Source of the DNA: Sthenelais limicola
Taxonomy: Eukaryota > Annelida > Polychaeta > Phyllodocida > Sigalionidae
Assembly (NCBI GenBank): GCA_942159475.1
Contig: OW804096.1
Location: 108,474,194-108,538,193, forward strand
Reading direction: 5' to 3'
DNA length: 64,000 nt
This document shows positions 17,541-62,709 of this stretch, piece after piece; positions within the stretch are counted from its first letter, which is position 1; the number at the start of each line of letters is the position of its first letter. The position numbers and the translations under genes were made by a program. The notes under the pieces are model-generated. The model made no database searches, had not been told where the DNA came from, and saw nothing but the letters and a program-made list of their open reading frames with translations.

Positions 17541-17544
17541 ACAT

Positions 17545-20727: not shown

Positions 20728-23700
20728 GTACATAGCCAGGAGCCTTTTGCTCAGGAATGTCATTGTCTCGATATCTGGGTTGTTATCTTCTCTGGTCGCA
20801 CGGCTCTTCCCTAAGCCCCTCTTCCCTAATCAGGATGTACGGTCTAGACAAGCCAGAGTGATAAGAGATTTATCTGAGGCCCCATAAGAGTAGCTCTACT
20901 GCTCGCACAGATTGAGCTAAGTAGAAGGGAATAGGGGAAATATAAGAACGCCGTTACTCTAAGAAAGAGCAGCAGATCATGATGCAATGGAACTCATGTG
21001 GGTCCCTGGGTCATTGGTATGCTTATAAATATCCATATAGGACCTTGGTCATGGCATGGAAATGTTCTAGAAGATAGGTGAGAAAATTATCTTAATTCAG
21101 ATCGTGCCTCGTAGCTTTTTTTCACGAATCAAAAAGTGGGAATAAATGGGACCCGAGAGGGAAGGAGTTTTAATCAATCAATGCAATTTATTTGGTAACG
21201 GACCCTAATCCCTGGGCAATTCAAAGGAGGTCTTGATCCGCTGACTCGTTTGCATTACTTGGGATGGGCCGGCCCTGAATTGGCAGTCTGAGATTAATTT
21301 AAACACTCATTACAGGAGATGGGGATGCCTGTCTCCCTGAGTAATCCTGAATACACCATTTTGCTGTACGATAAAACTGGATTCTTTATTCCAATGACAT
21401 GCTATTTATTGAATATTTTTATAATGTAGACCGAGTAACGAGCCGGTTTAGATTAAGCTTCCGTGGCTGCGCTTTCCAATATCCATCTTGGGTCGGTATT
21501 AATCCTCATGGCTCTTTGACTATTTATTTATTCTACAGAAATTAAAAGGGACGATGACTAGTCAAGAATTGTATAATAAGCTAGCTAATAAAGAGAAATT
21601 CTGAAATACGTAGTTTCATTTCAATATATCATCCGCATATAGTTGTGTGCATATCTTACTATATACGCCGTACCCAGATACCAAGTACTATTATCGTAAT
21701 ATGTCCGAGTCTTTGAATGAGTGGAGATGACAACTGGATGGCCAGAAAACTTAGCGAAGCTTGGTTTTTATTCCCAATAAACTGATTATGATTACTCATA
21801 ATGCCTGGGCTATCCTTTATCAGCAAAATGAAGCAAAACAGGACCAATCCTCTGTAATAATGTATAGAACTATCCCCCACTCCCTCCCCCTATCCTCTAA
21901 ATGTTTTCCCTTCACCGGTACCCCCCGCCATTTAGTTTTTTCCTGTATCTACCCTCCTCTTCCATGGTTGCCCTTGCTCCAATACGACCGGTGATCCTTT
22001 ATAATCGCCAATGCCTTTCTCGTGTAACTATCTTCCATCTCCTCTGTCAGAGGCCATATCATCGAACCCTTTGTATAGAGGGTTATCCCAAATAATAGTT
22101 TTAATGTTATATTCTGTCAGACTCGACAACAGACATATAGGGGCATCTATATATTAGACATTCATTCCATATTCGGCATATAATATTATTGCTCCGTTAT
22201 TCTATATATGTTTAAAGGGCAGGGACAATTGCATATCCCATTACATACGTATAGATGTATGTATGCATGTATAGCTGTGTACCGAATTGAAATGATTCAA
22301 ACGTATTTAGTATTATCATATCAGCAGTGACTGACTTCAATATTCTTACAGCTATTCATTGCACGTTCGTTGCCATGCATTCATCGATCACGATTCATTC
22401 CAGTAAATAAATGAACAAATAAAATATCGTTGTCTTATATCAATCACAATGCAGACATATTCCATATTCTGCTTCCCCCTTCGCACCAAAACGCCATGGG
22501 AGAATTGATATATCTATAAATTCCATGAGGAATTTATACCCATTTAAACGCCCATGCATTAGACCATACAGCACCATTTACACCCAATGGTAGGGCTATA
22601 AAAAGCATGGGATAACGCTCATTTGTTTCTGCCACGTTTCCTACAATAATATATTGCCCCATAATTCAGAGGGGATATTGTGGCAGTGTCCCCAGACCAA
22701 AGAATATTATATGAATATTTTGACAGGAATCCCATACACAGAACTAAAGAGTGTCCTTTTATGCTGGCTATAACGATCACATTCGGCAGAATCAATGGTT
22801 TTCATCATGCCGTATCACTCTAGTGGGTCTCAGGAGTGTCCATATTCGTTACATATTCTTACAGCATCTTCCGACCGTTTGCATATACGACGATTCGGGG
22901 TCATGTGCTAAGAGATGTTGAATCAAAACTCAGCTCCCCTAAAAAAGAACGCTTGGGAATTCACAGCATCTTCGCGGATCCATGGTGCCTTGCCATTGGT
23001 GCTGTGAGGAGAAAATGGAAAGTTATATTCCAAACTCATTGGGAATGATAACGATATAATAGTTTCACGCTCGTGTTAGAGTTATCAGTGATGGGTGTTT
23101 AATCTGATAACACTTTTATTAGCAATTACCGCTGAGAGGCGGGGAATGGGGCCGACCCGTCACGCACTCCATCCTGATAGGAATGCATAATCAACGCTGA
23201 AATAACAGAGGTAAAATCCCACGGAGACTGTAACCAGCACGGTACAACTCTCTTATCGCAGTCTATTGACAGATATGGAGATAATCTCAGCGTAGAACAT
23301 TTTTGGAAGAATCGGCATTTCTCAAACTGTGCCTTTGTAGTCCCCAAGCGTACAACTCCCCTTTGAAAGTCCTTTGGTGCTTCATTTGTTTTCCATCAAA
23401 AGATAAAGGATCGTTGGCTTTTGTCTTTGTCACATGAGCATACCTAATGTACTGAAATCAATATCAGACTGAAGTTGTATCGTTGTATTTCAAAGATATG
23501 AATGACTTCCAAATATTATCTGCAAGATTGACATACCAGCAGTGACAAAAAATGTACTTCTATTGCTGTTAATCGGATAAATGACCGCGTGATTAATTCT
23601 ACTTAATTTATAAACGCTGATTAATGCCTCGCTCGTTATTCTGATTTGTTTATTACTTGTTCGGGATTTACCCGGAGCAATAAGCTATAATTATGGTTTA

Positions 23701-23822
23701 ATGTACCACTGTTAACATATCAACTTTCTTTCCGGTATTGTGAAAAAATTGAATCAGTTAATCAAGCCCCAAACAGTCTACCCTTTCTAACGGATTTGTT
23801 TTTTCTCCTGTTTTTAATTCAG
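20728..23822 (+). other. Intron of the Ig gene (inferred)
   Basis: About 3.1 kb between phase-matched donor and acceptor (TTTAATTCAG at 23822). Only short ORFs; nothing recognisable. Confidence 0.55.
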
Positions 23823-24036
23823 GTTACGTGGCGAAAGAAGGACCAAAACCACCCGCTAACGATTGGGCTTTACACCTTTGTGGGCGACACGCGCATTGCA
23901 GTGGACTACAATCAAAGAACAAATGAATGGAGTCTAATAATTCAAGATGTAAGGCCTAGTGATGAAGGAATATATTCCTGCGCCATTTCAACAAAACAAG
24001 AGACCGCCACATATGATATAAAACTCAACGTTAAAA
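23823..24036 (+). CDS. Dpr/ZIG-8-like Ig protein, exon with second half of Ig domain 1
   Basis: 214 nt, phase 0 to phase 1, between a strong acceptor (CCTGTTTTTAATTCAG) and a strong donor (AAAA|GTAAGC). It encodes the C to G strands of a V-set Ig domain: VTWRKKD, LTIGLYTFVGDTR, NEWSLIIQDVRPSDEGIYSC and the G-strand IKLNVK. The W-x-K-K-D ... LT-x-G ... TF ... D-x-R pattern is typical of the first Ig of Dpr, ZIG-8, lachesin and IgLON neuronal recognition proteins. These bind each other across cell contacts and help specify synaptic partners. The W and the DEGIYSC cysteine are intact, and no frame damage is seen, so the gene is probably functional. Confidence 0.85.
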
Positions 24037-27000
24037 GTAAGCCCGAATTTCTGCTGTATCATTTTCACTCCTCATCCTAATATTATATGATATACACATT
24101 TCTTTCTTAATACCTACTATAAATGTCTTCCTAATCTACTCTTAATGCATGTTATGTGTTAATATAGAGAAAATAATCCAACAATAAAACACCGGGAATA
24201 TTACAACTCATGGATTGATAAATGCTTAAGCGAAAATCTAAAGAAGCCCCATGTGTATTTGTAGCACTTGGTGTCCTTTCTCTGAGTTGATGCTATCGAT
24301 ATTGTAATTCCATAGTGTTAATAAGGTACACCAAATCATGGATCCTTTCTAATGGATACTTACTGAATCTCTTCCTGATCTCCAAAGGCCTAAGTCCATA
24401 ATAATAGATCAAGTTAGTGATAGTAATACAATGTTCATTGTTTTCCAAAATATGAAATAATATTTAACCTCTTTGAATGAATTTTCATTAAGAAATTCAA
24501 CAGAGCACACCACGACTGATTTAAATGAAAATTGTTAGTATTGAGAGAAGAAAACTCTTTTAAATTCTTACAGCTAAAGATCATGGAAATGATAAAGTGA
24601 GTTGTGTATACCTTAAGGGAAGTCAAGCACCTGACCACACCATAAAGCTTCTGTCAGAGATAATTAATTGCAGTAGTTTATTTCCTTATAACTAAACATG
24701 ACTAAGGATTTCCTTTTTCAGATTTTCTCCCAAGAGCAAGATTACCATCTACTACCACTGTTTTCTGTTTCCACCAGAGCTAACATTTATGACCTGATCC
24801 ATAACCGTCTTTCGTTCCTAACAATGTTTGATGCTTTTTTCCTTTTTTTTAATACCTGTGAAAATGATCCGCATAATATACTGTTTATGACCAATGTATT
24901 TGTATCTAACAAGATTTCTTTGTTTTTTATATCCACGATTTGTGCCAAAAAAGCTTATTATTTCCTTGCTTTTGCTTTGATACAGCGGGACCCAACACCA
25001 TCGTTTATCTTTCTATTTCCTGGGTGAATGTACATATATAGATTCTTACGTTATAGAGAGACCACGCGTAAATTCTTAGATCGATTAGATTTACTTTAGA
25101 GTGACTCGTCTAAAAGAACGTATCGTTGTTCACATAAAACGTAACCACGCCAGTATTGAAAGACTGTATAAAAATATTTACAAATTGGTATCCTGGTATA
25201 TAAACATAAGCCGATTACTTATCACTCAATTTTGAATACAGTACATTATATTGATGTATATAAATGCTTTCGGTAAATTTACATATTCACGGCTCAGTAT
25301 TCTAGACATATAGAAAGACGCCGAAGAAAAGATCTCGAACCATTACTAGCGCATTTAATTAGCTTCCGAAATAGTTTTTGATGGAGAACCTCCGCATGGA
25401 ACATAAATGCATGCACACCGTATCCTCTTTCCCCTCGTAGAATTACACTTAATTAGGCAAGCTCAAACATCAAGATTCTAAAGTAGGTGGTGGAGTAGCA
25501 TAACAGCAATACTCTGGGATTCCAGCCCACAAATACTTAGTCTATGCAAGTGGGAGGCTGTAAAAAGAAAGAATGGGAAATAACAGGAAAACACGCCTGT
25601 CACTATTCCCAAGAGTCTCTCCTGCCTGATAAGACATAAGGGTAATGTAGGAAACTATCCAAGCAGACATCGGGAAAGCGAAACAGAATGCAAATGTCGC
25701 ACTTGCATTAAAATTTGAATTATCTTTAAAATGTCTTTTATCGCTACCTTTTGACATATTACTCTTTGGAGATATTACACATGTCTAAGCGAAAAAGAAA
25801 CAAGACACAATAATGTTGAAAAACTATCATATATATATGCAAGAAAATATGCTGTTCGTTTAAACCCCTCAACGTAGAACCACCACCGAAAAATGCATTT
25901 TAAAACTAATTGGATCGACGATGCTCGGGCTAATACATCAATCGAAATTAGCGATATCCTGGACATGCAGGCGGTTAGGAATTCAAGCCATCAACTAGAA
26001 ACTAGAAACTCATCTTCATAGACCATGACCTTGGTATCTTCTTACTGCGTCATCTCCTCCATTGCAAACGATTTGGTTCAAGCTATATTATTCACACTGT
26101 GTCTTACAGAAAGAGTTGGATGTCTTAGATATCTGGATTGATGGTCAGTGAAACATACCAGCTGCTGTGCTAAATATATTAAAAGAGTCCGAGTTGCGCT
26201 TTTATATAATGCAAAAGTATATAGCCTAGTCTGTGAGCGGATGCTTTTCCCCAAAGCGTTCTATGAAAAAAGAGGAGCTGTATGTGGTTGACTGCCTTGA
26301 TAAAGCAATTGCATATCGTCTGTCCCCATCGAACACTTGAATTTAGTCAAGATATTGGCATAAAACCGACGATGTGCATGGTACCCTGCAGGCGAGGGTG
26401 AGAATACTTAGGCCCTACTGCTCATTTTTACTGCAATTTTTTCCAAGGGAGCCTCCTGTCTAAGAGAACGTTAAATCAGATAACGTTACGATAAATCCAC
26501 TCTTGATTTGCAGAATCTTGCATCTTTGCATTAGATGTTTTATATAGATTTTAAGCTGAACCCTGTGCTGATTTAGTAATTATCCTGGTGTATTATTATA
26601 CTGATCCCTACTGATAGGCCTAACCATGCAGTAACGTTAACGTAGAATCATTTCCACTTTCCCTTATTTGGGCGTACACATCGCGGGAAATTAATGCTGC
26701 CACGAAGTAGGCCTAATAAAAATGACATTTCCCTTCATAATACATTTAAATAAAGTGGGAATTCCAAAAGAGCATGATAACCTACTCCCAAATATGTAGT
26801 TTTATCAACGTTGGTTTTTAAATAAGGACGATGTGAGAGAAAAATTACAATAGGATATGTAAGGCAATGTAAGCCAAAGCATAGTCTACTGATTTAGTTT
26901 TGTCACATTTGTGTCAGTAGGCCTCCTCTGCATAGATCGGCAAAAAGTAAGGTTATTTTCAGAATACGTAGGCCTACATGAAAGTAGAGGACATTAAATT

Positions 27001-32125: not shown

Positions 32126-34080
32126 GTAAGCTTTTGAATCATACACGTCTGCTGCTACTGTCAGCTCTGTTATATACCACTGCAGGCTATCTCACTCTGC
32201 TGCCAAACATTCACCCCCAAATGGTGGCGCCACCTATTTTCCTGTCTGTCTGTTTGTCCATCCATGTGGTTTTGACCCCAAGCAACACCGATCCTCTCCT
32301 CTTATTGTCCTTCTAATGGTGTTACCGGGATCTCACTCCTAGAATTGTCTCCATTAATTTTTAACGAACCAATTCTTCCTCATCGCTCACAGTATAATCT
32401 ACTACTAGCTGATTCTTCTTAATAGTAGATCTAGCAGACTTTTTCTTCATGCCTTTACTGCTGCAACCACGGCTGCATTAAAACCCCGCGAGGCTTAGGC
32501 CCTAACCTAAACTTACCCCAGCTTTGTTGTCTGGTGCCGTCTGTGTAGCATAGGACCAATGTTTCTTATTCAGAAACCTGATACTCTGGCCAAAGATAAA
32601 CCATTAATATCATACTTAAGATACTGGCTACTAATGGTTAGGGGGCATTATTATACATGTCATCATGACAGATCCTCTCGCTCTCTTCTCTATCCCTCAT
32701 CTAGCACTCAGACTATCATTATGTTACTCTACTAATCTGCATCCCTATCTTCCATCGCTTTGCTTCACCATTCTTGCAGCATCCTACACAATTTTCCTCT
32801 CTTTGACCTTTACTCTAGTCTCTCGATTCTTACATGGTTTGCTTTGTTAGATCTCTAGTCCATTCCTTGCTATTTGGGACAACATTTTTAACTGAATATG
32901 TAACGCTTAATTCCATTATCGATTTTCATATTTTATTACTTAATTATCTTATTTTTACCACTTCTCAGCTTTCAATGGTACACGGGCTACTTTCTCTCCT
33001 ACTAATGTCTCTGAGCTTCCTCTCGTTTCACTCGGCATCAAAGTGCATGGTAGCCCCCCCAAAAGAGTGCAATGAAAGCAATCGGACACAAAAACAATCA
33101 CTTTCACAGAGCAAAGTGTTCTCAGCTTTGGATTTCTGATGCTTTCCTTCGGATTGATAGTTTTATCATTCAGTTCTGATTTTGACTAACCGAATGTTAT
33201 CCTCAACTTTGAAGTTTGGGAATAAAGATTATATTTGGTGAGGCTTGATATGCAGTTATTAATCGACAAGTGGCATGAATTAATTCAGCCAGCGTGAGGC
33301 GATCCGATATAATGCAATTTTAACAGATTAACATAAGATAAGAAACTAAGAATTCACGTCAACCCGTGTATGGATCACATATTTCTCAAAGTATTTGGTG
33401 AGTAAAACCATAATTATTTAATTGGCAATACCCAGATTAAAGATAACCGTATCAGAGAATGTCGGATTATCTTTGTTAACCAATCTCCCAAGAGTACAAA
33501 ATATAAATTATGAGTTTATTTTGGTAATTCCTTATATATAGTTCCTTTGTAACATGCAAATTTATAGTTTAGAGATAGGGTAAAGTAGCAATCGCCAGTG
33601 GAAATATTAGGATAACGTCTTTCTCAATCACAAATATAAGATTAGATAGGGATATCGACAATGATAATAGATGGTGGTCACCAAAAAGCAATAGTATACA
33701 TTTTCAGTTTCCATTTGTTTTATTTTTATTGTTAAATTAATGTAGCGTCTGTACTATCAATGGTGTTTGCCAAATCTCCCAGGTCATTCATTGATCTCAT
33801 TATTCAAGTCCATCAATTCCATCCACGATGACGACAGCAAAGGAAATCATCCAATTTACATTTCAAAGGTGAAAATTTGATTCGGCAAGCAGGATTTGGA
33901 TTGTTTGGATTGCCCGCAGTATTAACAGAACCACGATGGAACAGGAATTATTAATGTCCTCTTTTATTTTCCAGAGCTGGGAAATGCAGCTACAAAGGTC
34001 CAAGCTCCCGACCATCACTCCTATAAAGAAACTTAGGAAGTTGAATGCATTTACTAACCTAATTTCTGTGTGTCTTTCAG

Positions 34081-34365
34081 CTGTCCAAGTAACAGGAACA
34101 GAATATGTAGAGAAAGGTACGACAGTACATCTGGTTTGTAACGCCACGGGCAAGCCAGACCCTCCACACGACGTGGAGTGGTTCAAAAATGGCATCAAAG
34201 TCAACTCGGATGCACAGAGTGGTATTTTGATTACAAAAAAGATAGAAACCAAAGTCCTCATCAGTGTCCTCGTAATCAAGCACAGCAAAATGTCTGATGC
34301 GGGCTCATATATCTGCAGATCCTCAAATAGAGATACAGGGAAAATACAAGTCCATATTCTTAACG
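34081..34365 (+). CDS. Dpr/ZIG-8-like Ig protein, Ig domain 2 exon
   Basis: A 285-nt exon, phase 1 to phase 1 (the classic symmetric Ig exon), between TGTGTCTTTCAG and AACG|GTAAGC. It encodes a complete second Ig domain: GTTVHLVCNATG (first Cys, with an N-glycosylation sequon NAT), DVEWFKNG, and SDAGSYICRSS (second Cys) before the G-strand IQVHILN. The C-x13-W spacing and the D-x-G-x-Y-x-C motif are canonical. The ending S-S/P-S-N-x-D ... VHILN resembles the second Ig of Dpr proteins (CSPSNAD ... VHVLN type). It is preceded by exon 23823-24036 in matching phase. No damage is seen. Lachesin/IgLON is the alternative family, but these have three Ig domains. Confidence 0.88.
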
Positions 34366-36082
34366 GTAAGCAGAGTCATTATTTCAAGAAGTTGTTATTT
34401 TCCATCGACTATGGCTATAGCATACGTCTGTCCGTTTTTATTCTACACGTCTCCAACGTCCCCTTACATTATGGTCGCGTACTAGGCACCTGTATACCTG
34501 TATCATTTTACTGATTTGAAGACTTAGATTTTCTCATAACCTCTGCCGCCCCTGGATAAAATCCTCATTGTGAATGAGAGATGGCAAGTGCTGTTATTTA
34601 AGTATTGTGGTCCATTGCAAACACGCTCCTTCCTCCATTCAGATCAGACCTTTGCGAATCTTATCCACAAGATGATCAGCAGAAATTTCAAACAAAAGCT
34701 AATATTTTGGCATAGTTCTAAACACGCTCTATTCACATAAATTAATCGTAGGCACATTTGTAAATTAACCTTCGTCATTCGAATTGTTTTTACCGAAGTG
34801 TGTGCGAAAATCGCAAATGCGTAATTATTTGCCAGATGATCATACTACTGTCAAAATTACACATTCCTGGAATAATAATTCTGCAAAATCTCTAGTGTCA
34901 ACCATTTTATTCATTCCGGATATATCCAGTTCTAGGGCCAATTTACGGTGAATATTCTTAAACATAGTCCTTGATATGCCTGCTGAATACATCGTAAAGC
35001 CCCGCTTCCCCAACTAAGTAGACTATTGTGTCCCTGACCATTTGGACCCATTTGGAAGCTACCACTGACTTAAAAAGGGAGATTTATTTTTTCGTCGATT
35101 ATTTGGAACTGGAATAAGAACGGATAAGAAAATCCAGGGTGTTTCACTTCCAACATTCCTCCCTGGGAATGATGGGTCAAGGCTGAATCTTCGAGAAGGT
35201 TTTATAATAAGCGATGGTCGGGAAATTATGGCAGTTATATTTTGTGACGTATGGGTTGTTTTAGTAGCTAAATAGAAGTTTCCTATTGGCAATATAAAAA
35301 GTCTTTATTAACCAATGATAACAAGTTAGTTAAATAATTTCGGTGGATCGTCATTTCATACCTTTCTTCATCTTTGTAGGCAGCTAATGATCAAAAGAAG
35401 AATTAACGCGTTTCTGTTGTCACATAAATGTGTCCTCGGGAGAGGGTTATGTATTCCCATGACACTAGAATTCCTATAATTTATAGCTGGGTCCTATATT
35501 AATATATCGTCATGAATACTCCTTTGAAATCTGTAACATACTTGGTTCTCCTTATATAATTGATTGGTCTATCTTCATTTGCAGTCTGCATAATAGAACT
35601 TTACTCTTAAATTTATTGATTTATTTCCTTGCTTTATATCCGACCATTGTGTAAGCTGCAGCAACCAATCAAAATGGTTTCTAAAATTAGCTTTGATTTA
35701 TGTTAACCTTAATTGTTGTATTCTTCAAGAAGAGAATTTCCGTAGCCAAATCTGGAGTTCGGCCTCCCATTTTCCAGAGATTCTTATTTTCAAATTCTGT
35801 GAACCGTACTCTGGTGAGAAAGATTACGGAATAGTAACCAATTTAATGATGATAATTCGGAGTTATGTCTCCTATTCCCAGAAGGTGCCACGGGAATCTT
35901 AACAAGGAACTGTATACTGAAACGAATAATTATAAGCCCCAACTGTATAATGATAAATTTAACGTTTCAATTAATTGATACATTATTTTCCCTACCAGAG
36001 ACACGGGTTGGAATATTCCAAACCTGAGTAATTTTAATCAAATATTTTTGTATTGATTTGCATTGTATGTCCTGCTTTACAG
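34366..36082 (+). other. Intron of the Ig gene (inferred)
   Basis: 1.7 kb, AT-rich, no further coding signal. Confidence 0.5.
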
Positions 36083-50955: not shown

Positions 50956-50959
50956 ACGA

Positions 50960-51029
50960 TCCTTTATTTTTTAATATAAAAATAATCTAAAAGCGTTCAG
51001 ATCTGGTGAAATATAACCAATTACCTTCC
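50960..51029 (+). repeat. Left arm of a 70-bp inverted-repeat pair
   Basis: It is the reverse complement of 55546-55614 with about ten differences, including a perfect 30-bp core (50993-51022 against 55553-55582). It begins TCCTTTATT. Together the arms enclose 4.65 kb containing the truncated LINE with the NADAR domain. They could be the termini of a DNA transposon or two unrelated opposite copies of one repeat. Confidence 0.85.
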
Positions 51030-53329
51030 CACAAATAAATGTCTTGCTGCGATAATTTTCTGGATCTGATGGGCCAAAATCAAAGGGTTAATCACTTAAA
51101 GTAAATCACTGGGCTGGAACACTTGCAGGGCATACAGCTCAATTATGATTCATAAGTGGGAACTCACATTATAATACTGGTTTCTGGGCAATGATATTGT
51201 GAGAATCAATCAAGTAATTTCTTTCCCGCTCTCCCAAACCCTTAGACTGGGTGTCTCCATATTAGTAGCTGTATGACACTGACTAGGGCTGTACCACTTC
51301 CTGAGCTGAGCTATGTGTGGTCACGGTCTAGTGAATCTGTACTAAACAATCGAAGTGGCCACTTTACTTCAAGGTCAACTTAGCTATAGGGCTGCACACC
51401 AAGTTAGGGACATTGCTGTATTAACCATTTTTGTCTTAATCCTTGGATATGAACATGTTTTCTTTGTTCATAAGTTCATCAATTTTTGCAATAGGGATTT
51501 TCTCTGTATTTTTCTAAGAATAAAAGACCATCATTCCATACCTGCATAACTATAGTGCAAAATTTGAGTAAAAGGAGAGAATTAATTGATATAGGTTGTC
51601 TTCACACAATATGAAAAAGAATTTTTGCAATTGTGCATGCAACAGTTTCAAATATAGACAGCCCTGAATCTCTGCTTTTGTTTCACATATCACAGTAACA
51701 TTTAACAGAAAAACTCTAAAAACTTAAAGGAACCTTATAAAATGAATTAAGGCAATTAAGGGTTTAGTCCCGAACTTAGCACACACCACTATAGAAATGC
51801 TACCTTATACTGATCACGGTCTACTGATCCACTTGACACTTGACCTCAATTCTCAAAAGTAAATACATAAATGTTTAGCTGTGTTTTTACTGTTGAAATC
51901 GATTGAAAGAGCTCCCTGATGTCTTTCTGCTGCCACTATTTGTTGTTATACATCCATATGCTTTATAGGTTTGCATTTCTAAAGCAGGTAGAAGTCAGGG
52001 ACTATAAATATTTAGCTTAGATTACAATATATACTGTCTGTGTGCATTCACTTCCACTGAAAAGGAAGTTTACCAGACCTCCAGCTTGTCATTTATGCAT
52101 AGCACCCTGGTAAGATGTCAGCCTACACTATCCAAATAACAGACAGAGTCTTCTCTATTAAATGGTGCTTTACAGCCACACACATTATTGGATTATTCAT
52201 TATAGTGTGCAGAACATAACATCTTAGTTTTCCTCAATGTCTGAACATAGGATATACTCAGTCCAGTGTCCCCCTTTAATGACCCTGGCAGTGACCCTTT
52301 TATCTGAGGTTGTGTGTGTGTGTGTGTCGGTGGTGGGGGGGATAGGGGGTAGAGAGGAGCAAAATACATCAGACAAAATCAGGGAGGTAGGCTGTAGGCC
52401 CCTATACAGAGGGAGAGGAAGTGAGGTTCAATGCGTGGTACCCCCATAGTTAAGAGTAAGAGTAATGCCACTACAGCTTGTGGCGCTAACTACAGTCATA
52501 CTACAGTGAATCAGGTCCACCCACTCCCACCCCCATCCACCCCCACTCCCACCCCCATCCAATAGCCAACAATTGTATAGCTGAGACTTCCGGTTGACGA
52601 TAGATTCAGAAAGCGTGTGGGTGGACTTGCTCCCCCTCTTTAACTCTTTTTCTTTCAGATCCAGAGAGTCGAGTGATTAAAAAAGTGTCAGAAGGAGTAT
52701 TATACCAGACAGAATATTGAAAAGCAGAGAAAAATTGTTGACAATTGCTAGGAAAAAGTTAACAAGGTTACAAATTTGGACTAAGCATGAACATGTGGAG
52801 TGGTAGCCATTAACCAGAGACAGTCAACCCTGGAGGGATTATCGCTCGCTCGGGGATGATGAACAAAAGTGGAATTACAGGACAAAAGTGAGATTTCAAT
52901 ACCTAAAAGCAAGCTGTTAAGGAAAAATAGTAGACTTTATAAGCGGAAAACATCTTCCAACAAAGACAAGGATTTTTTAAAGTGGGTCAGTAATGGTCAA
53001 GGCAAAAGCCCGCGGCCATCTTCCCACGCTAGCCAACCCGGGAGTATAATATACAGCTGACTCATATAGACCTACTGACCGATGACCACCCAGCGCACCA
53101 GCCTAGATCAACATAGCTCAGTGGCCGCCTCTCAGTCGGCATAGGCAAGGTTGCAAAATAGCCAAAAACAGTCGAAAACCAAATGTGAGTGAACTTTTAA
53201 GCTAGTGGAAAGAAACATGCACCAAAAACAGATATCGAAAATCCATAAAAACATTGTGAGCAACGAAATAAATAAGTTAGAGACGGAATAAAATCTGTAA
53301 CGAAGCTAAAAAGGGTAAACCGGAAGAAC
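51030..53329 (+). other. Unassigned stretch; last part probably LINE 5' UTR
   Basis: No recognisable gene. GT- and C-rich low-complexity tracts lie at 52311-52345 and 52517-52560 (the latter quadruplex-capable on the minus strand). From about 52570 the sequence becomes purine-rich like the following LINE ORF1, so the LINE 5' UTR may start there. Confidence 0.4.
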
Positions 53330-55031
53330 ATGACCTCCATCTTGGAGGAGAGTGAAAATGCCAAAAGTACAGGCATAGTAAGTGAGGAAGGGTGCGTAGT
53401 ACCAGTTACAATGCAAGCTCCTGCCAAGGCCCCTGTCAATACTGCTATGGATGTTGATCTAGAGAGGCTTGATAATAAGGGCCTAAATTCACCTTCATCT
53501 CCCAAGAAAAGACCCTCCAGCAGATCGCCTGATCCAGAAAACAATAAACAAAGTAAAAGTAAATTACAGAAGCAAAAAGACACGGAAATCTTGACCAAAG
53601 AAAAATCACAAAACATGAAAAACTCAGTGCCGAAGTCAAATACAGCTGAGCCTGACTTAACATTGTTGGTCAGGAAAATGGCAGATGATGCTAAAAAATC
53701 TGCAGAGGCTCAAAAACAAGCAGCAACAGATGCAGCAGAGGCAGCAACCCTAACCAAGCAAAATTTCAACAAATTATTTGAATCAATGAAGCAGTTAGAA
53801 GAAATCAAGGCTACAGCCAAAGCAGCCAAAGCAAAAGCTGATGAAAGTGTGAAGAAAGTAGAGGCGTTAATCCAGGACAACGTTAAGAGAGATAAAGACA
53901 CTGGAGAAATGAAAAAAGATATCAACAAGATGAAGCTGAATGGATGGCCAAGAGGAAGCCATAAAAATCTTACAGCAGAAAAGCCTAGCTAGTCGAGACT
54001 AACTCTAGTGGAACAGCAACAGATTAAAGATGCCAAGGAGTATGAAATAATTCAGGAAGAAGAGAGAAAACTAGAAAAAAAATTCTCTTCATGGGTGTCA
54101 AAAAATCTGTAATTAATGAGATCCCTGATATTGTGGATTCGACGATTAGAAAAATGATCAACATTTTGATGAATTTTCCAATGATAGACATAAAAAAGTG
54201 CTACAGGGTTAGCACAAAGGAAGGTTGTCCAATTAAAGTAGAGTTTCAATCAGCAGCTGATGCAGCCTTAGTACGAAAGGAAAGAAACAGAATGAGAAAT
54301 TTCAATGAAGATGAAGAGGTAGTAAAAATCGGAATAAAAAGGGATACTCTCTTAATTCTGAGGCAAGGTATGCTAAAGCAAAGAAAATCGATATGGCAAG
54401 CCTAAGAACGGACGGTTACAAAGTAGAGCTTATGAGAGGAAATATAAAGGTAAATGGAGATATTTACAGACATGACCAGCTAGCAGCCATTCCATTGGAT
54501 CTGGTGTTGTCTAAAATATCCAAACGAGAAAGTGACAGCCTCTATATTTTTCTCAGAGGATAACCCTCTGTCGAATCACTACTTCGCCCCATTTGTGTTG
54601 GACAGTCACAAATTCGACAATATCGAGCAATTTATATTGTACCAAAAGGCATATTATGGCAAAGATGTCGATAAGATAAGAGTTTGCTCTTAACAACCCG
54701 GACCCAAAGAAGTTCAAGAAGCATTTCAAGTCGATTACAGACAACCAGGAAGAATGGGAAAAGCACAGAGCTGAGCTAGTTATGAGAGCCCTAAAAGCAA
54801 AGGTAGGAAGGAAGGAAAAAGTCAAGAACTATATCTTCTAATGACTGGAGATAAAGAAATCGGTGAGGCCTCATATAACAAGGTATGGGGCATAGGCAAG
54901 GACATGGACCATATCGATGCTCTTGAAGTGGCCACAAAAAGGCAACTTACTATATAGGGGAGCTATGGATGAAAGTTAGAAAAACCCTACAGGAGCAAGA
55001 GGAGAAGAAGAAGGGAGAGCAGCAAAAATAG
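53330..55031 (+). pseudogene. L1/Tx1-type LINE ORF1 with C-terminal NADAR domain, frame-broken
   Basis: In order: an acidic, Ser/Pro-rich N-terminus from ATG 53330; a long Ala/Lys-rich coiled coil (about residues 112-195, including KKVEALIQDN); then, after frame changes near 53950-54083 (one in an A9 run), an RRM-like segment (KKCYRVSTKEGCPIKVEFQS) and an ORF1p C-terminal domain (KAKKIDMASLRTDG ... DQLAAIPLDLVLSK). This is the L1/Tx1 ORF1p layout, an RNA-binding protein that trimerises and coats LINE RNA. The reading then passes directly into a NADAR domain (see 54544) and stops at TAG 55029-55031. Several frame changes mean this copy cannot make the protein. Whether ORF1 and NADAR were one protein is inferred from the lack of room for a separate start. 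Confidence 0.75.
54544..54998 (+). pseudogene. NADAR-family domain inside the LINE
   Basis: Four short pieces in shifting frames give, in the correct order, the NADAR family signature: FFSEDNPLSNHYF (N-terminal LSN block), FDNIEQFILYQKA (the conserved E ... Q-K-A helix), NPDPKKFKKHFK and EEWEKHR ... VMRALKAK (central region), MTGDKEIGEASYNKVWGIG (the TGD, E-A-S and WGIG blocks), then ELWMKVRKTL (C-terminal helix). NADAR proteins include E. coli YbiA, reported as an N-glycosidase linked to riboflavin intermediates, and enzymes reported to remove ADP-ribose from guanine in nucleic acids. The conserved E and WGIG are kept. An Asn stands where Asp is usual before WGIG. This is recognised by eye, not by a profile search. 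Confidence 0.78.
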
Positions 55032-55082: not shown

Positions 55083-55517
55083 ATGGATTATGAAGCCCAA
55101 GAAAATCTGACTAAAATATTGTCACTAAACGTAAATGGGGTAGCAAATGTAACAAAAAGATCTGCAATTTTTACTAGATTTAAAGAAAATAAGAATTGTA
55201 TCATTGCTCTTCAAGAAACCAATTCCATAGCAAGTACCGAGCAAATATGGTCATCTAAGTGGCCTGGCCAGATTTATTATTCTCATGACACATCTGCTTC
55301 AAAAGGTGTATTATTGGTTTCAGTCGATATAAAAGAAAAAATTGTTCACTCAGGCCAAGATCAAGAAGGCAGATGGCAATATGTTATAATTAAGAACAAA
55401 TCAATGTGTATGTGTATTTTTAATATATATGCCCCAACAGCAAATAATGTAAAGGATCAGAAAAATGTATTAGATTCTGTAAGATCTTTTATAGAAGAGT
55501 TATCCTTTGATACTTAA
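55083..55517 (+). pseudogene. LINE ORF2 start: APE-type endonuclease, 3'-truncated
   Basis: It opens at ATG 55083, 51 nt after the ORF1/NADAR stop. It encodes the N-terminal part of an L1/Tx1-clade apurinic-like endonuclease: KILSLNVNGVAN (metal-site Asn), IIALQETN (catalytic Glu region), SKGVLLVS, and FNIYAPTA. It ends at a TAA after EELSFDT, before the expected GDFN block. The His-containing C-terminal half and the whole reverse transcriptase are missing. Sequence after about 55546 belongs to the inverted repeat, so the LINE lost its 3' part, the opposite of the usual 5' truncation. Confidence 0.85.
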
Positions 55518-55545: not shown

Positions 55546-55614
55546 GGAAGGAAATTGGTTATATTTCACCAGATCTGAACGCCTAATATTGTTTTTATAT
55601 TTAAGAATAAAGGA
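55546..55614 (-). repeat. Right arm of the 70-bp inverted-repeat pair
   Basis: Inverted copy of 50960-51029. It starts about 28 bp after the broken end of the LINE ORF2. Confidence 0.85.
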
Positions 55615-57126
55615 TTGTTGTAATGATAAATGAACTGCTCGTATCAAGATCTTAGTTCTAGTGACTCGATGGTCTTTATTGTGAGTCAGAGTTTCCGGTC
55701 AATTGTCGCAAAAACGGCCCTTGCAAACCAGCTGGGAGTTTCCCGGCTCTGTCTATAGAGCACACAAGTCAGGCGTTTTGCCGAGGTCTGCTGTTGACTT
55801 TATGGCTCCGCCATCAGATACCTGCAGACATTTAGATTTTAGCGGAAGAATCTATATTTCATTAGCTTTTTAATGTAATCATTCCAGAGTTCTACCTTGA
55901 ATATGACAGCCAAATTTCCGTCATTGTTTTGTCCTGGACCATGGGTATTTCCCCACGCTGGTCCGCGGAAATGACGTCATGCTGTAGGCGTGTGATCTGA
56001 TTGGCTGAGAGCGGCTGTTCTGGCTCTTCCAACTATATGGCACTCTGTATGAAGCATTACTCTGCATTTTGGTTGATCGCTAGCGTTGACGATAGTTGTT
56101 ATTTAATGCTAATCATTTCAGTTAATTTAACTTATTAAGGTATTGCGTGCCACATACCTCTAGATGATTTGTGGCAAAACCGCTTTGTGCAAATGCTATG
56201 CGCATAAGCACATGCTATGCCCAAAACATTACAAACGCCACGCCATAACTGAAGACACGATTACTAGTATACGCCTCCCTATATGTATCAGTCATTCTCG
56301 CACTTATTCTCCTACAAAAGTATGCATCCACTACCATGAATAGCAAGCAAAATAACATGATGGGAATGAGAAGTCTTAGGCTAAAAAGAAGTCTTAGGTT
56401 TACTTTCAAAATATAGATTGTTTTTGTACGTTGACATTGCCCACCATCCCACCCACCATCCTCCAAAATCCTTTAATTTTAGTGTTAAATCAACGTGCAA
56501 AACCATCGCTGATGGTTTTGCACATCATACGGTGGCACCACTGGTGAGAGAGTGAGAAACCATCTTCGAGTTTACCCGAACTTTCACCGATTCATGCCGA
56601 GCGTGTGAGACAGATCGAGCATGCTGTCATGGCTTCGGAACTAGAGTCCTAGAGGCATTAACGTGTGTGGTCTGGTATTCAGTAATCATACTAGTAAGAG
56701 CTTAAAATCTTTGGTCAAATCTCTCTAATAACTTATAATCTGGACACTGCTATAGGTGAGGAGTCTGGCTACATAGGAAATAGAAACAAATAGGGCATTA
56801 TTTGGAAATTATAGCTGGTCCTGACCAATAGGTTTCCGGCCAAGAGGCTGGTGGCGAATTTTCGAACTAAGGTTGTTATGTAATGCATAATATTATTATG
56901 CCACTGACACCTCCTTGTCTAGGTCTATGCCTCCTAATTGTTTAAACGTCTTGTATATTGCCTAACTTTTGGATGGGAATAGAAGCATTTAAAGGAAACA
57001 CTCTTCTGTTAAAAGTCTAGGTCTATGCACTTGGTGCTGGGTAGGTCGTGTGTGTATGTGACTGCTGTTTCGACCACCACCAACCACACCACCCCAGCGC
57101 AGCCGTGGTGTAGCTTGGTGTTGGCC
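55615..57126. other. No gene seen
   Basis: Non-coding. One perfect 13-bp hairpin with a 3-nt loop lies at 56495-56523 (GTGCAAAACCATC and its complement). Confidence 0.5.
56495..56523. repeat. 13-bp perfect hairpin
   Basis: GTGCAAAACCATC, loop GCT, GATGGTTTTGCAC. It has no terminator-like T tract and no adjacent gene. Confidence 0.85.
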
Positions 57127-57317
57127 AATGTGGTAGGGATTGTCGCTTGCGATAATTCCTCCTCATTGAGTAGCAGACTGCAGGGGAGAACGCCATCACC
57201 CCAACGGAAGTGCAGGAAGTTATGTCATCCCCACTTCCTCCAGCTCACTGGTCACTTCCTCTCCCTCTGTCCATTCAACTGACCCACGCACAGGAGAGAG
57301 GACTGGAGAAAAATTTG
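57127..57317 (+). repeat. Split direct repeat A1
   Basis: 191 bp, repeated at 62231-62421 with a single difference (C at 57240, T at 62344). It is the left end of the element. Confidence 0.97.
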
Positions 57318-57336
57318 ATCGTGCGGGAGCCCTGTT

Positions 57337-58644
57337 ATGTCCGAATCCGGACCCCTCTTCTCCCCTCGTAAGACCAGAAACCTGCCCAAAGTGAACTACG
57401 TAGCGATGGCTGACCCCAACAAGGACTCCACAAAGCCTAAGGCTAAAAAGAAGAACAAGCCAAAGAAACCAGTCACCCAGGGCCGAATGGAGACTATCTT
57501 CGAGGAAAGTTCCTCATCCGAGGAGGAGAGTGGCCAGGGCCCCGAGCAACCCCCCCAAGACTCTCCCAGTCGTGAGTTCAAGACCCCGAAAGGGCCCAGG
57601 AAGACCCTCACTGCCAAGAAACAACTCTCAAACGTTGTTTCTAGTCTCTGTGATGCACTAGTCGAGACTTCTAAGGCCAATGCCACCCCCAACTCCAGAC
57701 AACGTGGTCAAGCGACCTCCAGTGCACGTGGTCACCCCGGGGGCCGTCGCCACAAGCACCGCAAGCGTTCCCCTCCACCCTCTGACTCATCCAGCGAGTC
57801 AACCTCCTCCAGCTCATCTTCTGACTCCTCCTATACTCCATCGCCTAAGAGGAATAAGAAAAGGAAAAGGGCTTCAAAGCATTCTAGGAGAGATAGAAGG
57901 ACTCCTGCGGCAAAACGTCACCCATTCAGAGAAAGGCGACACTCAAGCTCCTCCAGCTCTAGCGATGACAGCGATGTGCCAGACCCCACTCACCTCAAGA
58001 GGTCGTACAAACACCATAAGCTCGCCTCCAAAGCCCTGGCTCGCCAATACAGATCGAAAGGCTCCGCAAAAGGTAAAAACAAAAACTTGTATCTTACCCC
58101 AGAAAACTGCCTCCCCCCTGACCTGGCCACTAGAGTTGATGCCGAAAAACGGGACCTAAGTGTTGTGGAATACCTATGCGGATTAAATCTTATGGCAGCC
58201 ACCATGAACAAGGATGGCTGCAGTGCTACTACCCTATACCACGTAAACATCCATATAGCAGAGGTGGCTGAAGATGCCGTCTCACGTTCTGGAGAAGCCA
58301 CTGTCCTGTGGTCCCAGACTATCATCGACCACATCTGCTCCGCGAAAATAAAATGGAAGGATAACTCATACATACAGCAGCAAAGGGCCCGCATAAGCTG
58401 GAATTCCAGGCCTATAATACCAAAACATAAGAAGTCGCGTGGAGTAGCCTCCCCCTGTACTCCATATAACTCAGAGGAATGCCAGCACAACAACTCCCAC
58501 CACGAGGGCCCCTCCCTGATGTTACACTGCTGTGGGTATTGTTATTTTAATACTAAGAACAAGGAGTTTCGTCACACCGCTAAGTCTTGCAACAACCGAA
58601 AGGCTACCCAAGGCAAGCCGACCGAGTCCAAGACAAAAAACTAA
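57337..58644 (+). CDS. ORF1, Gag-like protein of the Ngaro-like element
   Basis: 435 codons from ATG 57337, 20 nt after A1. The N-terminus is basic and Pro-rich. A central Ser/Arg-rich region (about residues 130-225, with Ser runs and KRNKKRKR-type clusters) looks like a nuclear-localisation and RNA-binding segment. The C-terminal part ends with a cysteine/histidine cluster C-x2-C-x10-H-x4-C (from CGYCYFNTK to HTAKSC), a possible zinc knuckle for nucleic-acid binding. This is what is expected of Gag in DIRS-type elements, which package RNA. The frame stops at TAA 58642-58644 immediately after a slippery heptamer. It is intact. An internal ATG at 57406 is an alternative start. Confidence 0.88.
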   Translation: MSESGPLFSPRKTRNLPKVNYVAMADPNKDSTKPKAKKKNKPKKPVTQGRMETIFEESSSSEEESGQGPEQPPQDSPSREFKTPKGPRKTLTAKKQLSNVVSSLCDALVETSKANATPNSRQRGQATSSARGHPGGRRHKHRKRSPPPSDSSSESTSSSSSSDSSYTPSPKRNKKRKRASKHSRRDRRTPAAKRHPFRERRHSSSSSSSDDSDVPDPTHLKRSYKHHKLASKALARQYRSKGSAKGKNKNLYLTPENCLPPDLATRVDAEKRDLSVVEYLCGLNLMAATMNKDGCSATTLYHVNIHIAEVAEDAVSRSGEATVLWSQTIIDHICSAKIKWKDNSYIQQQRARISWNSRPIIPKHKKSRGVASPCTPYNSEECQHNNSHHEGPSLMLHCCGYCYFNTKNKEFRHTAKSCNNRKATQGKPTESKTKN

Positions 58645-61031
58645 CTCTATGTCCCACCAGCACCAGGGACAATAATACTGGTGCCCCCGACTTTGACTCT
58701 CCCACATTTATTAAGACTCTTACCGTGCAAATTCCATCCATTCACGAACTCGGCCATGACAGGCCCAACACAGGAAGCGGAAGTGGGCCCAGGCTCCCAC
58801 AAAGCCCCTCTCAAACCAACAAAGATGGCCGCCACACTTCCGGAAAGTGCAAACACGTCGCCTCTGCAGCTCGGAAAACATCAGGTATGATTAATATAGC
58901 CAGATCTACTCCTTGTAAAGAATATGAACTGTACAGTATTGACACAATGAAACATGCTGAGGGTTTGGAACGGCCTACGCCGCAAACCCTAGCAGTGAAC
59001 ACCATATCTTGCGTCGGCCCAGCCGGGCCGAGCACCACCCACGGGCATACCAATGCAACTGACTCCACCGATGCTATAGCAATCACGCTCGAAGGATTAT
59101 TACACGAGGATTACCTGGATGTGGACCAGCCTACGCTGCACTCCAAAAAACCTCACAAACACTCAGCTATGCCACAGGGAACTGAAGGTAATAACAAACT
59201 GTTTCCATCCACCATCTCTCCCCCTCCGAGTGCTGACCACTCCCAGGCCTTACTCTCCTTCCTGGAGGGCCTGGCCCTAGTGAACCCATCGATCAGCGCC
59301 ACCACACCACCTCCAAACATCGCCTTCAGCAACTACAGTAAATGGCCATACCCTGCACTTGTCATACCGCAAAGCCTGGCAAACATCTACGAGGCTGTGC
59401 GAGCGGCAGGTGCTCCTAACTGGAGGGGGGCTAGACATCGTCTCCCGACAACCATGGACATTCTAACTTGGAAACATAATGGCACTAACCACAGGGATGA
59501 TGAGGTGATCTTTAATGGTATTCAATTTGGCTTCCCAATCCAGTATACGGGAGGCCCAATCTACTCAGACACACCAACAGTCAACCACCCTTCTGCATTA
59601 GCTTTCCCCGAACACATACAGGACTACCTCAACACAGAATGTACCCTCTTGGCAATGTCAGGCCCATTCACCTCCCCACCATTCGTCCCATGGTGCCACA
59701 CCAGCCCCATGATGACCAGGCCCAAGTCTGATACAGCCAAGAGACGAATAATAGTTGACCTCTCCTTCCCCAATGGAGGTGTCAATGCTTGGGTGGCCAA
59801 GAACTTCTACAACACTCTCCCAGCCACCCACAACCTTCCTACTGTGTCAACGGCCTGCGAAATCATCAAGAGCATGGGAAAGAGAGATGTTGCAATGGCG
59901 GTCCTTGACTTATCAAGAGCATACCGTCACTTTCAAACCTGCCCTCTCGACTGGCCCCTCATGTGCGTCACCCACAACAACTTGACCTACATGGACCGGG
60001 CCCTCCCATTTGGGGCCAGAATGTCCTCCTATGTAATGCAGCTCGTGGCCTGCTTCATAGTGAGGGCCCTTACTAAGAAGAATATCACCGCCCTCATGTA
60101 CTTAGACGACCTCCTACTAATAGCTCCATCCCTAGAACAACTGCAAGACCACTTCGCATCAGCAAAGCTGCTTATGTCTGACCTGGGCCTCAGGGTAGCC
60201 GAAGAAAAAACCCAGCTACCCTCAACTAAGGTCAAGTGGCTGAGCATAATTATTGACACTCACAACAACAACATCACCATACCTAAGTGTAAACTGGCCG
60301 AAATAAAGTTATGTTTGGCGGCTACAGCCAGTAAACACATAGTATCCACAAGAGACATGCAAAGCATAATAGGAAAGGTGGCCCACCTCGCCAAGGCTGT
60401 CAGGCCTGCCACTCTGTTTATGCAACGCATGTTAGACGGCCTACGCCTGGCCAAAGGAGGACCAGTCATAATATCGAAGCTCGTGAAGGCCGACCTCCGC
60501 TGGTTCGACCGCTTCATGGTCGAATATAATGGCTCATCCATAATCCCTGAAGGGGCTGTGTCGAAGACCATATGGGCTGACGCCTGCCTCACTGGTGGTG
60601 GCGCCACCAATGGCTCCACATACTATGCCCACAAGCTTCACCCTAGTGATACAGAGGGGAGAAGCATCAATCACATAGAAGCACTGAACTGCGTGGCCGC
60701 GGTCAGACTCCTGACTGGCCCCGAGGATAAAGGAAAGATAATACGAGTCTGCTGAGACAACCAGGCAGCAGTGGAGTCCTTCAAAGGCGGCAAACCCAAG
60801 GACCTCACATTGGCAGCATGCGCCAGGGCCCTCTGGTACATCTCCGCTCAGAGGGAACTTGCACTGGAGTATGCCCATATCCCAGGCCGCCTGATGGACC
60901 TCCCCGATGCCCTATCTCGCTCACACTTATCTGTAACTTACCATGATAAAGCTAGAACTATTATTGAAGACCTCTGCCTATCCGAGGTTAAGTGCTCACA
61001 CTCAACATATGACATTTCTGATTTTTTCTAG
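58584..61031 (+). CDS. RT-RNase H ORF of the Ngaro-like element, one in-frame TGA
   Basis: This frame is -1 relative to ORF1 and opens after TAA 58581-58583. About 370 residues of low-complexity linker are followed by a DIRS-type reverse transcriptase: RRIIVDLSFPNGG, VLDLSRAYRHFQ (first Asp), ALPFGARMSSYVMQ, and MYLDDLLLIAPS (active-site YLDD). RNase H follows with IWADACLTGGG (Asp), NHIEALNCVA (Glu), DNQAAVESF (Asp) and LPDALSRSH (last Asp). TGA at 60753-60755 lies two codons before the DNQ motif and would cut off half of RNase H. The frame is otherwise open to TAG 61029-61031. There is no plausible ATG before the RT, which suits translation as an ORF1 fusion by frameshift. Confidence 0.92.
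58635..58641 (+). promoter_or_regulatory. -1 frameshift slippery heptamer A_AAA_AAC at the ORF1/RT junction
   Basis: In ORF1 frame the codons are ACA AAA AAC TAA, so the heptamer A_AAA_AAC sits in the exact phase needed for a tandem -1 slip and ends directly before the stop. After slippage the reading continues in the RT frame (DKKLTLC). This is one of the strongest known eukaryotic slippery sequences. It is followed at 8 nt by the pseudoknot at 58650-58684. A lost base in the A run of this copy is the alternative. Confidence 0.7.
58650..58684 (+). promoter_or_regulatory. H-type pseudoknot candidate stimulating the frameshift
   Basis: Stem 1 is TGTCCC (58650-58655) with GGGACA (58666-58671), 6 bp. 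Stem 2 is GCACCA (58660-58665) with TGGTGC (58679-58684), 6 bp. Loop 1 is 4 nt, there is no base between the stems (coaxial stacking is possible), and the last loop is 7 nt. Stem 1 starts 8 nt after the slippery heptamer, inside the usual 5-9 nt range. Geometry matches classical frameshift pseudoknots. It was found by hand pairing, without energy calculation. Confidence 0.6.
61022..61028 (+). promoter_or_regulatory. -1 frameshift slippery heptamer U_UUU_UUC at the RNase H/recombinase junction
   Basis: RNase H codons are GAT TTT TTC TAG, so T_TTT_TTC is in -1 slip phase and ends at the stop. The recombinase frame has a TGA at 61019-61021 and is open from 61022, so the overlap of the two frames is exactly this heptamer. 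A hairpin (AGCCA/TGGCT outside, GGCCA/TGGCC inside, 61042-61069) lies 13 nt downstream, a little far. Two alternatives: a lost T in this copy, or a 3' splice site, since GATTTTTTCTAG also looks like one. Confidence 0.6.
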
Positions 61032-61993
61032 GCAGACACCAAGCCAAGCTGGCCAGACTGGCCGTGGCTAGACAGAGAGAAGCCCACCGCCCTGGGACCA
61101 ATGCCAACAGAGAGTCAGCCATCAAGTTGTATGTTGCCTTCTGCGTCAAGATCCGCATAAAATATGACGCCCCAACTGCTGCCCATATCTGTTGGTATGT
61201 AGAGTACCTAGTCGCCAGTGGCCTATCTCCTGATACCATCCAGAATAACGTGTCCTCGCTGAGGACGTTCTTCAAGATGGCCGGGCTTGACCCCGCCCCT
61301 CTTCTCGACTACTCTGTTATCACAGCACTGAAAGGAGTACGCCTGACTGTGAGACACATCCCAAAACCAAAAGGGGCAGTAACCCCCGCCCTGCTGAGGA
61401 AGTGTGTGGCCTGGGCCTCTCAGTGTGAATATCCCAGAGAGGTCAGAGCCGCCATCCTCATTATGTTCATGGGCTTTATACGCCAGTCTAACCTCTTCCC
61501 TCCCTCGAAAAGGGCCTTCGATCACACAAGGCACCTCACCACTTCTGACGTGATCATCGAGGGGGAGGGGGTTACTATAAAGCTCAAATGGTCGAAGACC
61601 ATGCAGTCTCCGAGAACCCCCGTGAGTGTCTTCCTACCGGCCAAGCCAGGTGACCCTATATGCCCCAGGAGGGCTGTCTACAGCCTGGTCAAAAGGAACA
61701 GACACCTTCCACCTCACGCGCCCCTCTTCAGCTTCTCAGATGGGAACCCCTTCACGACTGGGTATATGAGGCGAACGTGGGCATGGATCATCACCCAGGC
61801 TGGTTCCTCCCCGTCCTGCCACTCCATGCATAGCCTGCGTCGAGGCGGGGCGTCCTACTCCTACCATGAAGCGGGGGCTTCACTAAATGACGTCATGACC
61901 CATGGCACATGGGCCAGTGACGCCGTCAGATCGTATCTGAGGCCGTCAGCCCAGACTTCCACATCGGTCCACAAAGCCCTGAGTGCAATGTGA
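61022..61993 (+). CDS. Tyrosine recombinase of the Ngaro-like element
   Basis: 324 codons are open from the slippery site; there is no ATG near the start. Counting from GTG 61064 (309 residues), the N-terminal SAM-like domain (ANRESAIKLYVAFC) is followed by the catalytic domain: Arg140 in MGFIRQSNL, His256 and Arg259 in HSLRRGGAS, Trp283 in the H/W position (GTWAS), and the nucleophile Tyr291 in VRSYLRPS. All residues of the R-H-R-H/W-Y set are present, so the enzyme is probably active. It joins or inserts the circular DNA copy by cutting and rejoining through a 3'-phosphotyrosine. Stop TGA 61991-61993 lies 13 bp before repeat B1. Confidence 0.94.
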   Translation, partial: FFLGRHQAKLARLAVARQREAHRPGTNANRESAIKLYVAFCVKIRIKYDAPTAAHICWYVEYLVASGLSPDTIQNNVSSLRTFFKMAGLDPAPLLDYSVITALKGVRLTVRHIPKPKGAVTPALLRKCVAWASQCEYPREVRAAILIMFMGFIRQSNLFPPSKRAFDHTRHLTTSDVIIEGEGVTIKLKWSKTMQSPRTPVSVFLPAKPGDPICPRRAVYSLVKRNRHLPPHAPLFSFSDGNPFTTGYMRRTWAWIITQAGSSPSCHSMHSLRRGGASYSYHEAGASLNDVMTHGTWASDAVRSYLRPSAQTSTSVHKALSAM

Positions 61994-62006
61994 ACTATTC
62001 CTCCTT

Positions 62007-62234
62007 GGGTTAAAGTGCGCATCTGGACTGACAGACAATTTTATTACTATGCAGAAAATACCATCTTCAATAATCTCTTCTGCTATACAGGTTTATATAT
62101 GTATATCTCCTTTTATCCACATGACATTGCTTTGTCTATTTCAATACTACTTCATATATACTCCAATACCATAAATGTCCCAATATCGCTAATAAACATC
62201 TTCGAACCTTAAGAATGTCTGTGTTTACTTAATG
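62007..62234 (+). repeat. Split direct repeat B1
   Basis: 228 bp, identical to 62482-62709. It contains AATAAA at 62191-62196, a possible polyadenylation signal. Its last four bases AATG are also the first four of A2. Confidence 0.97.
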
Positions 62235-62421
62235 TGGTAGGGATTGTCGCTTGCGATAATTCCTCCTCATTGAGTAGCAGACTGCAGGGGAGAACGCCAT
62301 CACCCCAACGGAAGTGCAGGAAGTTATGTCATCCCCACTTCCTTCAGCTCACTGGTCACTTCCTCTCCCTCTGTCCATTCAACTGACCCACGCACAGGAG
62401 AGAGGACTGGAGAAAAATTTG
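62231..62421 (+). repeat. Split direct repeat A2
   Basis: Second copy of A1, one mismatch. It is followed by 60 bp of unique spacer (62422-62481) before B2. Confidence 0.97.
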
Positions 62422-62481
62422 CCACCCACCCTCCCTACAATAAGCTGGCACTCCGTTCCAATCAACACCAAGAAACTTAAG

Positions 62482-62709
62482 GGGTTAAAGTGCGCATCTG
62501 GACTGACAGACAATTTTATTACTATGCAGAAAATACCATCTTCAATAATCTCTTCTGCTATACAGGTTTATATATGTATATCTCCTTTTATCCACATGAC
62601 ATTGCTTTGTCTATTTCAATACTACTTCATATATACTCCAATACCATAAATGTCCCAATATCGCTAATAAACATCTTCGAACCTTAAGAATGTCTGTGTT
62701 TACTTAATG
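62482..62709 (+). repeat. Split direct repeat B2, right end of the element
   Basis: Exact copy of B1 ending in AATG at 62709. Small ORFs in B1 and B2 are repeat-derived and not genes. Confidence 0.97.

Follow-up and report, generated by a model that had tools for sequence, protein, structure and literature searches.

NADAR domains fused to the ORF1 protein of L1/Tx1-like LINEs in the genome of the annelid Sthenelais limicola

NADAR enzymes hydrolyse guanine-ADP-ribose and thereby reverse guanine ADP-ribosylation, an activity possessed by, among others, the NADAR of Phytophthora nicotianae (PMC11543638), while the role of eukaryotic NADARs, those of animals included, has been called unclear (PMC11125620). 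Among retrotransposons, the ORF1 proteins of several Tx1 LINEs of Crassostrea gigas appear to hold a YbiA-family NADAR, for which a part in RNA processing has been suggested (PMC12477816), and Repbase holds 14 L1-Tx1 entries for this species (PMC10294476). The stretch of Sthenelais limicola DNA analyzed here (64,000 nucleotides of contig OW804096.1, referred to as the window) contains an old LINE copy on the + strand in which ORF1, a NADAR, and the start of ORF2 follow one another:

53330-53992, + strand: N-terminal part of ORF1, lysine/alanine-rich and coiled-coil-like (open frame 53276-53992, first ATG at 53330)
54082-54535, + strand: ORF1 core (RRM-like and C-terminal domain), broken by a frameshift, 63-80% identical to the core of ten related copies
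54537-55028, + strand: NADAR (Pfam PF08719) forming the C-terminal part of ORF1p, its pieces in alternating frames
55083-55511, + strand: start of ORF2, an APE-type endonuclease (ATG at 55083), 63-80% identical to the ORF that follows the NADAR in related copies

The coiled-coil character of the N-terminal part was read from the sequence by eye and is putative. Related copies align to the window from starting points between 53612 and 54057, set by the short stretches that were taken, and the frame may have been lost shortly before 53992, within the final residues of the N-terminal part. The pieces of the NADAR follow one another in order on the + strand, with the frame alternating between them (54550-54678, 54680-54811, 54814-54930, and 54939-55028). 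The open frame 54315-54563, which encodes the latter half of the ORF1 core, enters the start of the NADAR, SLYIF, free of stops, after which the NADAR match shifts frame at a run of T; this open passage from the core into SLYIF suggests that ORF1 and the NADAR once shared a single ancestral frame.

An earlier note, made from the letters of the window, had claimed a NADAR between the ORF1p C-terminal domain and the ORF2 endonuclease, and the PF08719 profile search that it proposed bears this out. With an X placed at each frame break of the window copy, the read-through of 54537-55028 gives a Pfam NADAR match with E=1.8e-18 (67.8 bits vs a cut-off of 35.1), covering profile positions 10-162 of 163, and among solved sequences the NADAR 8bau comes closest (E=1e-9). 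Unjoined, the copy matches in two pieces that both fall below the cut-off (E=0.17 and 0.0053). When the 1627 six-frame fragments of the window are scored with a profile of 120 NADAR proteins, the three main unjoined pieces rank 1-3 (19.6, 17.5, and 16.3 bits), and the best of the 32,686 fragments from 20 dinucleotide shuffles, which served as the chance control, reaches 10.0 bits. The end piece, 54927-55028, ranks 8 at 4.6 bits and taken alone lies within chance. Among 5.8 billion proteins, X-joined ORF1-NADAR residues 260-569 returned 2074 candidates and the NADAR alone returned seven, none in either case at E≤0.001. A two-sequence profile (A1) recovered 218 proteins; among the matches listed (120) are oomycete NADARs, and most are unnamed; at a query coverage of 70% or more, none exceeds 35% identity to the window. 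In a scan of viral contigs, A1 recovered one distant NADAR and the endonuclease had no match.

The same genome (assembly of 1.13 Gb in 161 contigs) possesses many NADARs of this kind. All of the 150 scored genome candidates, the best of 5561 from a first look and a choice that favors intact frames, pass the Pfam cut-off (103.7-119.1 bits); 148 lack an internal stop, and the surrounding open frame reaches 400 aa or more in 127 and 600 aa or more in 86. When the stretch 54300-55030 of the window was used as the query, 40 places were scored from 74 candidates, a choice in which NADAR-less copies would score lower and may sit among the unscored. One of the 40 is the window itself, the other 39 are 72-79% identical to it, and every alignment runs from the core across into the NADAR. 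Ten of the 39 were taken as close copies for comparison. Four of these (L033, L034, L035, and L038) encode the ORF1 core together with a complete NADAR in a single open frame, the arrangement for which the earlier note had proposed to look; in two others (L030 and L037) the core and the first part of the NADAR share a frame. Endonuclease similarity lies downstream of the NADAR in all ten.

In all nine ORF1s inspected, those of more distant families included, the NADAR directly follows the ORF1 core (eight of the nine cores were aligned). It forms the end of the protein in the window family and in L025b1, whereas the others continue into a tail of about 150-350 aa. Several LINE families in this genome have the fusion as an established and constrained component, and its position is the same in every ORF1 inspected. 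That the NADAR signature is a chance resemblance, or reflects an isolated insertion into a single LINE copy, could be read from the broken frames of the window copy and the lone pieces below the Pfam cut-off; it is ruled out by the strength of the joined match, the 40 junction-crossing alignments, the 148 stop-free hits, and the open-frame copies, together with the low dN/dS of the domain (below), leaving it a vanishingly small probability. The many copies, intact ones among them, thus speak against the single insertion by which the earlier note said that it could be wrong.

Other NADAR frames in the genome differ from these fusions in standing alone. The reverse strand of L025 (2947-3432) carries a stand-alone 162-aa NADAR open frame at most 38% identical to the LINE NADARs, and three stand-alone hits of 162 aa, including G000 C1:89380390 and C1:66983187, sit on one contig. 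These may belong to a host gene family or to another mobile element.

The assignment of the host element to the LINEs draws on its endonuclease, on the ORF1 core, and on the related families. The window endonuclease matches Pfam Exo_endo_phos at E=7.9e-4 (19.7 bits, below the cut-off of 24.5), and the nine PDB sequences that it matches best (E 3.4e-6 to 7.7e-5) all come from L1-type endonucleases or L1 ORF2, seven being named LINE-1 or its ORF2 and the other two LR1 and LTX, which we take to be L1 endonuclease variants. Pfam returned nothing above any cut-off on the ORF1 cores, and a profile of eight LINE ORF1 cores matched four PDB sequences at E≤1, all weakly (E 0.088-0.25). Three of the four are named LINE-1 ORF1P and the fourth 'ORF1 codes for a 40 kDa product', presumably also L1 ORF1p. 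The ten closest copies were taken to a point short of the reverse transcriptase (RT), and the evidence for RT comes from other NADAR LINE families: a downstream ORF of at least 700 aa is present in 16 of the 20 stretches taken around the 150 hits, and in all five of the 16 that were scanned the ORF2 holds an endonuclease and RVT_1 above the Pfam cut-off. Because one NADAR LINE ORF2 has an R2 protein as its best PDB match (4.3e-15), ahead of L1 (8.7e-13), the placement of these elements as L1/Tx1-like is provisional.

The window element itself is a dead, 3'-interrupted copy. The similarity of related copies to the window ends at 55507-55511 in six of the ten and earlier, at 55225-55486, in the other four; the window copy is thus broken off near 55511, and no RT was found with it. 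About 35 bases past the break begins the right member (55546-55618) of an inverted short-repeat pair whose left member lies at 50956-51029 (88% identical), and the right member may be part of whatever interrupted the LINE. A second LINE fragment lies at 17539-18786, and its RT shares 41% identity over 418 aa with the RT of the NADAR-bearing LINE in L024; a six-frame scan found no NADAR beside it. Elsewhere in the window, an element at 57127-62709 possesses an RT (E=7.9e-15), a weak match to a tyrosine-recombinase N-terminus (E=0.0017, below cut-off), and split direct repeats (57127-57317/62231-62421, 99%, and 62007-62234/62482-62709, 100%), and by this repeat layout we take it to be DIRS/Ngaro-like. 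Open frames with immunoglobulin-domain matches (23691-24077 and 33873-34511) are possibly exons of a host gene. No match to Rfam at the gathering threshold was found anywhere in the window.

Phylogenetically, the window NADAR groups with that of L033 (support 98/94), then with the close family (98/97), and then with L025b1 (100/99), while the other LINE NADARs form further deep clades. The tree left out L002-L004, L006, L008, and L009, which duplicate longer loci, and domains of less than 60 bits (L030 and L037), and set the LINE NADARs beside 22 of 120 outside proteins (six chosen among the first 26, then every sixth starting at P0029), a biased sample in that the outside proteins came from a profile containing the window sequence. 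In the free tree with a midpoint root, the window family and L025b1 fall on the side of the outside proteins, apart from the other LINE clades, with support of 85/82. Together with the division between ORF1s that end in the NADAR and those with a long tail, this placement would fit capture of a NADAR by LINE families more than once, in which case the window family and the long-tail families share merely a convergent layout. Such repeated capture seems rather unlikely to us, given that the position directly after the ORF1 core is identical in the nine ORF1s inspected and that a tree constrained to a single clade of all 31 LINE rows escapes rejection (p-AU 0.208), a value that is compatible with one capture and is no proof of it.

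The NADAR is under constraint. Over this domain, dN/dS, another of the checks that had been proposed, is 0.04-0.13 in nine informative pairs, the copies sampled being high scorers and thus favoring intactness. L001, L005, L032, and L039 were left out, as were pairs with fewer than 130 codons or with dS outside 0.03-1.6. Of the ten pairs that passed, one, L020/L027, links two families close to saturation (dS 1.54, ratio 0.47) and lies outside the nine quoted. By region, with values from six of eight pairs, dN/dS is 0.03-0.13 for the NADAR, 0.00-0.35 for the core, 0.19-0.76 for the tail (five pairs), and 0.10-0.31 for the N-terminus (three pairs), such that the constraint on the NADAR is about that on the core and the tail and N-terminus drift faster. 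From the low ratios in the nine pairs it follows that the NADAR works for the element.

In the numbering of the Phytophthora NADAR (PMC11543638), and with 31 rows taken as LINE (29 distinct), E125, W89, W133, and K75 are kept in every row, E43 is kept in all 29 rows that reach that far, and position 50 is lysine in 18 and arginine in 11; the window copy keeps E43, E125, and the phosphate lysine K50. The distal ribose is contacted by E43 and E125, and the bacterial enzyme requires its equivalent residues E88, K95, and D171 to function as an antitoxin (PMC11543638). In the bacterial enzyme, D171 takes the place of E125, and E173, the glutamate conserved in sequence across the superfamily, is dispensable; a lysine-to-arginine change at the K50 site preserved activity in vitro and lost the rescue in vivo (PMC11543638). 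Three further positions have changed. Asp130, an aspartate in all 120 outside proteins, is asparagine in 11 of the 31 LINE rows, among them the window family; Arg79 differs from row to row, and Tyr84, which stacks on the adenine, lacks an aligned counterpart in 26 of the 31, both of these positions varying in some of the outside proteins as well. In the window family the three are N, K, and no aligned residue. They are ADP-ribose contacts of one enzyme (8bau) and do not define the NADAR family; as they have changed, the substrate or activity of the LINE NADARs may differ. The kept main active-site residues, with the dN/dS, lend indirect support to the LINE NADAR acting as an enzyme.

The same three changes could instead be taken to mean that the domain is a binding module and not an enzyme, one that recognizes ADP-ribose or an RNA end and aids ORF1p in selecting or retaining its partners. 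A precedent of sorts is the animal NADAR protein SNA-3, whose substrate is not known and which functions in trans-splicing and contacts the CBC-ARS2 complex (PMC9303266). We think this unlikely: it is doubtful that a pure binder would need both E125 and E43, each kept in every row that reaches it, and changes in SNA-3 at residues homologous to the catalytic ones of YbiA impair its function, though its authors allow that folding may have been disturbed (PMC9303266). If the domain is an enzyme, its substrate could also be small, for example cyclic ADP-ribose, other ADP-ribose derivatives, or modified nucleosides, so that it would blunt a diffusible host signal or clean RNA ends, with ADP-ribosylated nucleic acid left untouched. 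For phage NADARs, action on small ADP-ribose derivatives and in RNA repair has been argued (PMC9503650), and YbiA acts on riboflavin intermediates (PMC9303266). Against this, a tether to an RNA-binding ORF1p would better suit a local, macromolecular target, and macromolecular targets have been argued for the NADARs of eukaryotic RNA viruses (PMC9503650); a small-molecule substrate accordingly appears improbable.

The explanation to which we lean, with modest confidence, is that of an L1/Tx1-like LINE whose ORF1p-NADAR protects retrotransposition from ADP-ribosylation by the host. Its ORF1p consists of a coiled-coil-like region, a weakly supported core of RRM-like and C-terminal domains, and a YbiA-type NADAR, and is followed by an endonuclease-bearing ORF2, which in related families also holds RT. 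By coating the RNA of the element, ORF1p would bring the NADAR into the ribonucleoprotein, where it would probably cleave ADP-ribose from guanine, or a similar N-glycosidic adduct, on the RNA or cDNA of the element or on attached host factors, and the removal of ADP-ribose would shield retrotransposition. A bolder form of this proposal, which we put forward tentatively as a possibility short of an expectation, is an arms race: an animal LINE radiation with a built-in ADP-ribosyl-guanine eraser on ORF1p, selected because the host marks LINE RNA or cDNA. The suggestion in the earlier note that bivalves ADP-ribosylate guanine in DNA has published ground, in that guanine-N2 DNA ADP-ribosylating activity has been reported in six edible clams (PMC11209040). 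Were the domain active, animals would have a nucleic-acid ADP-ribosylation that matters to retrotransposons, and the kept residues and many intact copies make natural proteins available that are directly testable.

The fusion itself is already known: where the earlier note knew of no established description, one sentence exists (PMC12477816), and a literature search beyond that paper, with most subscription papers and bioRxiv preprints outside its reach, found no other description of a NADAR-LINE fusion. The C. gigas Tx1 LINEs (Repbase; PMC12477816) resemble the window family as L1/Tx1-type LINEs whose ORF1 protein includes a NADAR; they are represented by that one published sentence, on divergent hits that appear to be NADAR, and are compared here by description only. 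A brown-alga LTR element is likewise a retrotransposon with a conserved NADAR, but there the domain is fused to Pol, whereas the window family is non-LTR with a fusion to ORF1. The animal RNA-virus NADARs, including those of annelid and bivalve picornaviruses (PMC9503650), resemble the window family, by description, in that a NADAR lies in a protein of an RNA-based replicating element of invertebrates, and differ in sitting in viral polyproteins, unlike LINE ORF1p. The Phytophthora nicotianae NADAR (8bau) belongs to the same domain family, with E43, K50, E125, W89, and W133 in common, yet is a stand-alone protein from which the window family differs at D130, R79, and Y84. As far as the literature search reaches, what is new in the LINEs described here is the fixed place of the NADAR after the ORF1 core, the strength of the constraint on it, the residue-by-residue account of its active site, and its abundance in one genome.
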